A stretch of 40,197 nucleotides of DNA from Clostridia bacterium (GTDB taxonomy: Bacteria; Bacillota; Clostridia; RGIG6154): positions 1-40,197 of the forward strand of contig JAGAJK010000027.1 of assembly GCA_017626145.1 (NCBI GenBank). Reading direction: 5' to 3'. The position numbers were made by a program, and so were the translations under genes. How positions within the stretch are numbered: the stretch's first letter is position 1; the number at the start of each line of letters is the position of its first letter. Below, piece by piece: positions 8,268-23,785 of the stretch. The notes under the pieces were generated by a model. That model was given only the letters and a program-made list of their open reading frames with translations. It made no database searches and was not told where the DNA came from.

Positions 8268-8296
8268 TTGACTTACAAGTGTTTTCGTGCTATTCT
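8268..8296 (+). promoter_or_regulatory. Candidate promoter of the divergent araC-type gene
   Basis: TTGACT (8268-8273), a 17-base spacer and TATTCT (8291-8296). The predicted start of transcription would fall only about ten bases before the ATG at 8312, which would give a very short leader. Confidence 0.5.
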
Positions 8297-8311
8297 AATA
8301 TTGGTGATAAT

Positions 8312-9067
8312 ATGATTTTTGATAATAAGTCTCCATTTATGTTTAAAATACTTTCTGTTCACGAGCTTTCCTGGAATGAAAGCAGGCGTTATACTGACGG
8401 ACGTGGTTTTCACGCCCTTTCATTTCGTATAAAAGGGAGTGCACAGTTTAAAAACGGTGATAATGTCTGGAATGCAGGAAGTGACAGTATAAGCTTTGTA
8501 CCAAAGGACTTTCCGTATTACCATTCTCATAATTACGAGCATCTTTATGTTGTTCACTTTAAAACCGATAAAGAGATGGAAAACGAAGAAATATTTACTT
8601 ATGTTCCGCAGACACCCCAGCTTTACAATACACTTTTTAAAAAGATGTATGATATATGGAATAATAAAGCCCACGGTTATTACTATGCGGCAACCTCTGT
8701 ATTCTACACAATTCTTGAAAATATGCAAAATGACCTTATTAACGCAAGCCTTAAAAAGACTGACAAAATGACCCGTGTTATGGAATATCTGCATACAAAT
8801 TTTACCGACAGTATGATTTCTGTTGCCAGATTGTCCGAAATATTCGGAACGAGCGAAACGTATTTTCGAAAAACCTTTAAAGAAGTGTATAAAACAACAC
8901 CCCTTAAATATATAAACTCACTACGAACCGATTACGCACTCGAGCTTCTCCGCTCCGGCTATTTCTCGGTAAGTCAGGTTGCTGAAAAGTCAGGCTTTGG
9001 CGATGCAAAATACCTGTCCCGCGTAATAAAATCAAAAACAAAAAAATCCCCCTCGCAGTTTAAATAA
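8312..9067 (+). CDS. AraC-family transcriptional regulator of the sugar operon
   Basis: The N-terminal half is a cupin-like sensor (FHALSFRIKGSAQFKNGDNVWNAGSDSISFVPKDFPYY region). The C-terminal 100 residues hold two helix-turn-helix motifs: SVARLSEIFGTSETYFRKTFKEV and VSQVAEKSGFGDAKYLSRVIK. ATG 8312 is preferred because GGTG lies just before it; a GTG at 8279 would place the start upstream of the predicted promoter -10. It is transcribed away from the sugar operon and shares a control region with it that has a 22-bp-spaced direct repeat, so it probably activates that operon in response to a small sugar. The ligand is unknown. Confidence 0.85.
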   Translation: MIFDNKSPFMFKILSVHELSWNESRRYTDGRGFHALSFRIKGSAQFKNGDNVWNAGSDSISFVPKDFPYYHSHNYEHLYVVHFKTDKEMENEEIFTYVPQTPQLYNTLFKKMYDIWNNKAHGYYYAATSVFYTILENMQNDLINASLKKTDKMTRVMEYLHTNFTDSMISVARLSEIFGTSETYFRKTFKEVYKTTPLKYINSLRTDYALELLRSGYFSVSQVAEKSGFGDAKYLSRVIKSKTKKSPSQFK

Positions 9068-9096
9068 CTGAAGCTAAAATGGAGGTAATTATTGCT

Positions 9097-9408
9097 ATGA
9101 AAAAGCTTATATCAATAGTGCTTGTTATCTGTGTGCTTACGGCAAACATAACAGCAATGGCAGAAACGAAGGAAGTTGAAGGCTTGCACGAAAAATTAAA
9201 TGCCATAATTCTTGAAAATAATTTTACCGAAGAACAAATAGCGGATATGGATGCTCAATTTGTAGAAGAATTTAACTGGGAGGAAGCCCTCGACATCTTA
9301 ATAAACGAAGGGATTTTGTCCGAAGAAGATACCACGGCAATGGATTTATTCACCCGTGGCGACATGGCAAAAATCATTTACGAATCTATGGAAAACGGTA
9401 TATTTTAA
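9097..9408 (+). CDS. Mini secreted protein joining the two ends of an SLH-type paralog
   Basis: A 103-residue protein with a signal peptide (MKK, a hydrophobic run, then AMAE). After it, EVEGLHEKLNAIILENNFTEEQIADMD matches the start of the mature protein encoded at 22481-23785 (EVKGLHENLEGLWMKNNFSEEELTALD). From EFNWEEALDILINEGIL to FTRGDMAKIIYE it matches the last 45 residues of that protein. About 330 central residues, including the complete SLH repeats, are missing. The reading frame is intact, and GGAGGT (9081-9086) serves ATG 9097. It may be an internally deleted copy that stays expressed or a genuine small secreted protein. Function unknown. Confidence 0.75.
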   Translation: MKKLISIVLVICVLTANITAMAETKEVEGLHEKLNAIILENNFTEEQIADMDAQFVEEFNWEEALDILINEGILSEEDTTAMDLFTRGDMAKIIYESMENGIF

Positions 9409-9431: not shown

Positions 9432-10598
9432 ATGAACGATTTTATTTATTACGCACCCACAAAGGTGTATTTTGGAAAAGACAAGGAAAACGAAGTAGGA
9501 AAAATTATTAAAGACTACGGCTATAAGACCATTATGATGCAGTACGGCAAGGAAAGCATCAAAAAAATCGGTCTTTATGACAGAGTTATGAAATCTCTTA
9601 AGGATAACGAAATAGAAGTTATCGAAATGGGTGGGGTAGAACCAAACCCTAAGGTTGAATTTGTAAGAGAAGCAATTAAGGTTGCCAAAGAAAATAAGGT
9701 TGAAATGATTCTTGCTGTAGGCGGCGGAAGTGTTATTGATTCGTCAAAAGCTACGGCGGCAGGTGCAATGTGCGATTTTGACGTGTGGAAATTTTCATCG
9801 GGTGAGGAAACTCCGAAAGCAGCATTGCCCGTAGGCTGCATTTTAACTCTTGCTGCGGCTGGAAGTGAAATGAGTGCATCTGCCGTTTTGACTGATTTAA
9901 GCATTAATATGAAGCGTGGCTACGGAAGTGAATTTAACAGATGTAAGTTTGCAATCTGCAATCCAGAGCTTACCTATTCGGTAAATAAATATAATACTGC
10001 CTGCGGTATTGTTGATATAATGGCTCATACAATGGAAAGATATTTTACACCTGTTGATGACACACCTCTTACTGACAGCATCGCTGAAAGCATTTTAAAA
10101 TCGGTTATTGATGCAGGAAAGGTTTTAATGACTGACCCTGAAAACTATGAAGCAAGAGCAACGGTTATGTGGGCGTCAAGCCTTTCACATAACGATTTAA
10201 CAGGGTGCGGAAGAGCAAATTATTTAGCTGTTCATCAGCTTGAACACGCCCTGAGTGGTGAATTTGACTTTGTTGCCCACGGTGCAGGTCTTGCGGTTTT
10301 ATTCCCTGCCTGGGCAAAATATATTTATAAACACAATATAAAAAGATTTTCACAGTTCGCAAGAAATGTATGGAATGTAAAAGAAACAGATGACGAAAAA
10401 TGTGCAATTAAAGGCATCGAATGTATGGAAGAATTTTTCAAATCCCTCGGTATGCCAACTACATTAAAGGAGATAGGAATAAGTAACGAAAACGCAGAAA
10501 AAATGGCGCTTCTCTGTACCTTTAACAAGAAAAGAACAATTAAAAGCTTTGTTGAACTTGACTATGAAATTATAAAGGATATTTTTGAAATGTGCTGA
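9432..10598 (+). CDS. Iron-containing alcohol dehydrogenase (butanol dehydrogenase type)
   Basis: A NAD(P)H-dependent group III alcohol dehydrogenase, most like the BdhA/YqhD branch. The N-terminus FIYYAPTKVYFGKDKENEVG and VGGGSVIDSSKATAAGA (about residues 97-113) form the nucleotide-binding half. GIVDIMAHTMERYF and VHQLEHALSG provide the conserved Asp and His residues that bind iron, with a further His in FVAHGAGLAVLFPAW. Full length for the family. GGGAGAAA precedes the ATG. In a fermenter it would reduce aldehydes to alcohols and regenerate NAD(P)+. It stands alone, 23 bases after the mini secreted protein, with no clear functional link to it. Confidence 0.9.
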   Translation: MNDFIYYAPTKVYFGKDKENEVGKIIKDYGYKTIMMQYGKESIKKIGLYDRVMKSLKDNEIEVIEMGGVEPNPKVEFVREAIKVAKENKVEMILAVGGGSVIDSSKATAAGAMCDFDVWKFSSGEETPKAALPVGCILTLAAAGSEMSASAVLTDLSINMKRGYGSEFNRCKFAICNPELTYSVNKYNTACGIVDIMAHTMERYFTPVDDTPLTDSIAESILKSVIDAGKVLMTDPENYEARATVMWASSLSHNDLTGCGRANYLAVHQLEHALSGEFDFVAHGAGLAVLFPAWAKYIYKHNIKRFSQFARNVWNVKETDDEKCAIKGIECMEEFFKSLGMPTTLKEIGISNENAEKMALLCTFNKKRTIKSFVELDYEIIKDIFEMC

Positions 10599-17308: not shown

Positions 17309-17653
17309 ATAAATTGCAATTTAACGAGATGTTTCATATAATTTAATATAATAGTTTGCCGATTTTGATATTTGCATATACTATAATATATGCAACAAGC
17401 CTTGCAAAGCAAGTCTTTGCGACTAAAGTCGCCAATGTACTTCGTACATTTTGCAATATTGACGGCGTCGTAAAAATGCCCTTGCAAACAAGCATTTTTA
17501 CTCCTGGTAACGAGAGCGAGAAAATCCAGTATTCTCACGGTAACAGTTAGAAAATGGTTATAGGAAAAAGAAAATTTTGTTTTTTATTGTTTCCTGATGT
17601 GATAAATTAATTTATATTAAAGATTTAAGATATTATTTATAGGGGGAGCTATA
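17309..17653. other. Intergenic region with the repeat copy and MmgE/PrpD leader
   Basis: No gene is seen in this 345-base gap. It holds an AT-rich stretch, the second copy of the multi-hairpin repeat (17397-17538) and an AT-rich leader with GGGGGAG before ATG 17654. Confidence 0.6.
17397..17538. repeat. Multi-hairpin dispersed repeat, copy 2
   Basis: Near-identical in order and spacing to bases 1-141, with the same five stems. Differences cluster in loops (GTT against AAA in the first hairpin) or are paired: the second stem reads GCGAC/GTCGC here and GCGGC/GCCGC in copy 1. The last stem is slightly weaker here (TTCTCAC). Conservation of long loops such as TTTTGCAATATTGACGG between stems 3 and 4 suggests more than a simple terminator. 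Confidence 0.75.
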
Positions 17654-22480: not shown

Positions 22481-23785
22481 TTAATTGCTTATCAGTTTTT
22501 TACTTCGTGCTTCGTAAATAATTTTTGCCATATCACCTCTTGTGAAGAAAGACATATCTTCTGTATCAGTATCGGTAAGGATTCCCTGTTCAACTAGGAT
22601 TTCAAGGGCGTTTTCCCAGTTGAATTCATCAATGTTACTACATCGAAGTATCATTGTTGCAAATTCATTTGCACTTACTTGCTTGTCAGGGGAAAAAGTT
22701 CCGTCACCGTTTCCTAAAATTAATCCTTCCTGTGCAGCAATAAGGGCGGTTTCGTAGCCCCAGTGACTTTCGGGAACATCGGAAAAAACTTCCTCCGATT
22801 GAAGCGTTACAGAGTTCTCTATGCCGATAGCTCTTATCAGTATTGTCGCCGCTTCAATTCGTGTTAACGGCTTTAACAAATCAAGCCCTTTTTCATTGCC
22901 GTACAAAAGTCCTTGACTCTGCAGTGCTTCAGCTTCTTTGGTAAATGTAGTTTTTATTTGTCTTGCTCTTTCTGCGAACTGACCTGAATGGGTTGCCGCT
23001 TCGGTTAATTTAGGAGTTTTATCCAGCTCACCCCAGAATTCTTCGGCAGAGTACAGTCCAAACAGCTCAACACTATGCAGGTTTTGACCGTCAGGCTTGG
23101 CACCGGTATTTTCATCTAATTTCATAAAATACTCATTTCCGTTACAATTGACGTATAATATCGGGAATAGGTCTAAACCACAAAATATTTTTATATCCGA
23201 GACTTCGGTTTTACCCTTTTCAAGAATAAGAGCTTTGATTTTTTCTTCATTGCGAAGAAAATCAAGGGCTTCATCAGATAAATACATAGGATATCCGGTT
23301 GGATATTTTTGATTCCATGCATAGTAGCTTAAAATATTTCCGTTTGCTTCAAAATTTTGGTCACCGTTCCAAATATATTTTTTCTTTACATACCAGTAAT
23401 AATTGTCTAAAAGATATCCGAAAGTACCATTTTCTGCGTATTGTTTGTAGTAATATTTTGTATTAAGCAAGCTTACTTTAACAGCTTTATTGTAATCAAG
23501 AACAGCCTCGTGCATTAAAAGCTCGTACTCCTCTTCTGGCGTAGAGGTTCTGTTTTTAGGTATTTTAAATGCCAATGGAATATATATGTCTGTTAAGTAG
23601 CTTGAGGTGTATTCGGTATAGTGTTCATCCAAAGCTGTTAATTCTTCTTCCGAAAAATTATTTTTCATCCACAGCCCTTCAAGGTTTTCGTGAAGCCCCT
23701 TAACCTCTTGTTCCTGTGCAGACGCAGGAATAAAACAGCTAAAGAATACACATAAACACATTAAAACAGTTATAGCCTTCTTCAT
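22481..23785 (-). CDS. Secreted protein with C-terminal SLH repeats
   Basis: 434 residues. A signal peptide (MKKAITVLMCLCVFFSCFIPASAQ) is followed by EVKGLHENLEGLW, a helical middle with many Tyr/Trp, and S-layer homology-type repeats near the end: PLTRIEAATILIRAIG, FSDVPESHWGYETALIAAQEGLILGNGDGTFSPDKQVSANEFATMILR, and a last partial repeat with FTRGDMAKIIYE. SLH repeats attach proteins to pyruvylated cell-wall polymers. GGAGGT precedes the ATG. It follows the large secreted gene after 13 bases. Both ends recur as the mini protein at 9097-9408. No enzyme motif is seen in the middle domain. Confidence 0.8.
   Translation of the reverse strand: MKKAITVLMCLCVFFSCFIPASAQEQEVKGLHENLEGLWMKNNFSEEELTALDEHYTEYTSSYLTDIYIPLAFKIPKNRTSTPEEEYELLMHEAVLDYNKAVKVSLLNTKYYYKQYAENGTFGYLLDNYYWYVKKKYIWNGDQNFEANGNILSYYAWNQKYPTGYPMYLSDEALDFLRNEEKIKALILEKGKTEVSDIKIFCGLDLFPILYVNCNGNEYFMKLDENTGAKPDGQNLHSVELFGLYSAEEFWGELDKTPKLTEAATHSGQFAERARQIKTTFTKEAEALQSQGLLYGNEKGLDLLKPLTRIEAATILIRAIGIENSVTLQSEEVFSDVPESHWGYETALIAAQEGLILGNGDGTFSPDKQVSANEFATMILRCSNIDEFNWENALEILVEQGILTDTDTEDMSFFTRGDMAKIIYEARSKKLISN

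Follow-up and report, generated by a model that had tools for sequence, protein, structure and literature searches.

The stretch of DNA analysed here (the window) comprises 40,197 nucleotides, positions 1 to 40,197 of contig JAGAJK010000027.1 from a Clostridia bacterium genome (GCA_017626145.1). A short ORF encoding 103 residues is located on the forward strand at 9097-9408. The start codon and reading frame are intact and a Shine-Dalgarno sequence, GGAGG, is present at 9081-9085 (forward strand), which confirms what the preliminary description had stated. The ORF is packed tightly between co-directional genes, with an AraC-type regulator (8279-9067, forward strand) ending 29 nt ahead of it and an iron-containing alcohol dehydrogenase (9432-10598, forward strand) beginning 23 nt past it. 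Profile searches with Pfam and NCBIfam returned no model for the short ORF, and no SLH model matched it at E ≤ 10. The window also carries a 139-bp repeat, 92% identical between positions 1-139 and 17397-17536, with one copy right at the contig edge; it has no Rfam match and is probably a dispersed non-coding repeat.

A distant full-length paralog of 434 residues is encoded on the reverse strand at 22481-23785 and consists of a signal peptide, a globular domain and three SLH domains. The preliminary description had reported that the short protein resembles this neighbour at both ends, and the resemblance is real. The N-terminal ends align over about 55 residues (38% identity; BLOSUM62 score 118, or 82 for the mature part only, where shuffles peaked at 45), and the C-terminal ends over 42 residues (59% identity; score 153, with shuffles peaking at 53). 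In 2000 shuffles, not one of these scores was attained.

The 434-residue neighbour was however ruled out as the parent of the short gene, as a search of the organism's own genome revealed a far closer third paralog on another contig, C2 (G000:C2:33834-35060; 408 residues), which was the closest match and is only 44% identical to the neighbour in the window. The short gene shares 98.1% DNA identity with this C2 parent, with 6 differences in 312 nt, and the parent is longer by exactly 915 bp (305 codons). In the DNA alignment, the 5' part of the short gene (9097-9264, forward strand) corresponds to nucleotides 1-168 of the parent at 98.2% identity and covers the signal peptide and the first mature residues. 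The 3' part (9265-9408, forward strand) corresponds to nucleotides 1084-1227 at 97.9% identity and holds the third SLH domain (SLH3), as placed via a predicted model. The signal peptide, read by eye as MKK followed by a hydrophobic stretch and AMA-E, is of the same type as that of the parent.

Short repeats at the deletion edges were something the preliminary description had proposed looking for, and against the C2 parent such a repeat was found. The junction falls in a 12-bp direct repeat, GAAGA(G/A)TTTAAC, of which the parent has two copies agreeing at 11 of the 12 positions, GAAGAGTTTAAC at nucleotide 169 and GAAGAATTTAAC at nucleotide 1084. The sole copy remaining in the short gene, GAAGAATTTAAC, lies at 9265-9276 (forward strand). 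The chance of such a repeat at random pairs of breakpoints within the parent gene is about 5e-5. The two copies are in phase and each encodes EEFN, so the frame of the short gene survives the deletion; the peptide AQFVEEFNWEEALD spans the junction of the short protein. The junction sits at the border of SLH2 and SLH3 and leaves SLH3 whole; the short form retains SLH3 along with roughly the first 35 residues of the mature protein. The short gene is a copy of the C2 gene carrying one deletion with a repeat at its junction; as is characteristic of a deletion derivative, there is near-identity on either side of a single junction and an edge repeat with one copy left. The 'frozen deletion' put forward in the preliminary description hence stands as a deletion with mapped edges, but the gene that was shortened is the C2 paralog and not the neighbour in the window. 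Since full length is the rule for this family in different genera, the deletion is the derived state.

The near-identity between the short gene and its parent is limited to the ORF. It starts 1 nt before the ATG and stops about 6 nt after the stop codon, and past these edges only a few bases agree (e.g. GAGG-TAATTAT), not clearly better than in shuffled DNA. Three of the six differences, which are all of those in the 3' part, are confined to the final 13 nt (P about 0.001), a clustering expected if a conversion tract ended there. A comparable pattern is seen in another genome, E08__bin289 (G412), where paralogs share 84-93% DNA identity at both gene ends while their flanks are unmatched and the middle retains 17-41% protein identity. 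At least five family copies in this genome (L025, L026, L029, L031 and L060) have ends that are nearly identical, whereas the middle varies and the flanks are unrelated, and several of its contigs stop inside the gene. Judging from these alignments, ectopic gene conversion between old paralogs and the copying of near-exact coding units would both fit. Within the literature library searched, no paper joined SLH with Monoglobus, or SLH with gene conversion and paralogs.

The short copy has the GGAGG sequence, which is not shared by the C2 copy; the latter has no good Shine-Dalgarno sequence within 20 nt of its ATG, the nearest GAGG being at 24 nt. The gene may for this reason have been at the locus in the window for longer. 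Comparison of the window with 16 kb of DNA surrounding the C2 gene showed no larger duplicated segment. In the nearest relative (G002), the DNA beside the corresponding alcohol dehydrogenase (67%) showed no match to the regulator or to an SLH gene, and this comparison thus gives no pointer to the original locus. An IS110-family RNA-guided transposase gene lies just upstream of the C2 parent (L015:5310-6659, G000:C2). Insertion of this element, considered as an explanation for the 5' edge of homology lying at the ATG, was not supported: in two other genomes (G015 and G031), the IS110-related DNA already stops about 125 bp ahead of the parent's ATG, and the DNA upstream of the short gene had no match better than shuffles to the far side of the element.

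Relatives of these proteins are secreted, about 410-430 residues long and conserved at the C-terminal end. Full or long copies were present in 6 of 391 genomes drawn from the class, the genome of the window included, and most relatives fall in one family, which includes Candidatus Avimonoglobus. The preliminary description had suggested searching relatives for stand-alone short forms. None was found in 70 genomes of this relative-rich family, in the order to which the window belongs (six genomes, five besides its own) or among 12 loci retrieved by peptide patterns from 84,980 species genomes. One open frame of 127 residues (L030, G015) was rejected as a short form because it is the terminal portion of a full-length copy with a frameshift. 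Decayed full-length members do occur, one with this frameshift (L030/L046/L062, G015:C1:127258-128476) and another with an internal TAA (L053, G409:C135). Searches of viral contigs and phages returned no relative and those of plasmids only remote SLH matches; carriage of the gene by a phage or plasmid was accordingly not supported.

The predicted model of the 434-residue paralog (mean pLDDT 75) pairs an N-terminal globular region with a C-terminal region of 155 residues. The latter matches SLH trimers (for SpaA, Z is 17.9 and rmsd 2.5 across 148 residues), and Foldseek comparison of the model with SLH trimers gave TM values up to 0.80 by target length. The globular domain had only fold matches too weak for interpretation, with Z of about 3 or 4. 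SLH2 of the full-length parents passes the Pfam cut-off. The genome itself (2.8 Mb) has 97 SLH domain matches at E ≤ 0.01, indicating an SLH-rich surface. By alignment, the cut in the short form falls within the long helix 46-72 of the globular domain of the 434-residue paralog. The short protein's own model is poor (mean pLDDT 54), which, given the thin alignment behind it, is weak evidence. In the structures of SpaA and Sap, a pyruvylated wall polymer is bound in the grooves of the SLH trimer, the ligand pocket of SpaA is built from residues of all three SLH domains, and mutating two of the arginine motifs of SpaA rendered the module insoluble (PMC6081394). Functional wall anchoring is judged by the presence of three SLH domains, and the short ORF has the third only. 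Since the SpaA pocket uses all three domains, a lone SLH3 is, to judge from these other bacteria, unlikely to bind the wall in the SpaA manner, and most likely the short product neither folds as the parental domain nor binds the wall.

We consider it very probable that the short ORF is a young remnant, namely a recent paralogous copy of the three-SLH gene on C2 with one in-frame deletion of 915 bp between 12-bp repeats. In the proposed sequence of events, the surface protein gene now on contig C2 would have been duplicated recently; slipped replication or recombination between the direct repeats would then have removed the intervening DNA in frame; and the product would be secreted but would keep only the cut N-terminal helix and SLH3 and would probably be non-functional. 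Counted against a remnant is that the short gene may be transcribed and translated, given its intact ORF, start codon and Shine-Dalgarno sequence and its tight packing among co-directional genes. The same intact frame and ribosome site, together with the signal peptide and the whole SLH3 left by the junction, would suit a functional small surface protein in which SLH3 and the N-terminal piece would compete with the parent protein by attaching to it or to the wall polymer. Such a protein is improbable, as the ligand pocket of known SLH trimers takes all three domains (PMC6081394), the N-terminal helix is severed within a domain, and no second short form was found in the 70 family genomes or the five other genomes of the order. 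The 'designed minimal version' of the preliminary description, competing for the same site, is for these reasons unsupported.

A misjoin of C2-gene reads in the contig of the window (C93) was also weighed. The genome is in 98 contigs and members of this family break assemblies elsewhere, with contigs of other genomes stopping within the gene; but the short copy has base differences of its own in both halves and unrelated flanks on either side, and ordinary assembler joins need a repeat much longer than 12 bp. An artefact is very improbable. Virtually no weight is left for independent descent, in which the short form would be an old family member derived from the neighbour in the window or from shuffled end modules. 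Conservation in the family is indeed highest at the ends, and another genome has mosaic copies whose middle varies, but the short gene is 98% identical to the C2 gene to the left and to the right of the junction, which refutes this for the present pair.

A broader reading, to which we assign a small probability, is that the SLH family is spread or overwritten as near-exact coding units, paralogs at unrelated loci being almost the same between start and stop codon only, with shared ends and an exchangeable middle as in a recombining repertoire of surface proteins, and that the short form is a by-product of this exchange. As a single gene, the ordinary in-frame deletion copy of a surface protein is of small consequence. 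It illustrates that a protein seemingly made of the two ends of a neighbour can be traced to a hidden parent once the search extends beyond the window to the remaining contigs. Paralogs that are nearly identical within the ORF only could be of wider importance if the cause is ongoing gene conversion or copying of surface proteins in these Clostridia.

The three C-terminal SLH units of the full-length parents model as the same trimer as those of SLH (PF00395) wall-anchored proteins such as SpaA of Paenibacillus alvei and Sap of Bacillus anthracis (trimers 6cwc and 3pyw), from which the short ORF differs in having SLH3 only. The domain plan, the similar ends and the ORF-limited homology of paralogs are shared with the multi-copy mosaic SLH family of Monoglobus-like Clostridia (E08__bin289; L025, L026, L029, L031). 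Those copies are either full length or truncated where a contig stops and, unlike the short gene, none is an N- plus C-terminal deletion form. As in bacterial deletions between short direct repeats by slipped mispairing, one repeat copy is left and the intervening sequence is lost; the present case differs from typical ones in that the repeat is imperfect in today's parent and that the loss is in frame through the EEFN encoded by both copies.
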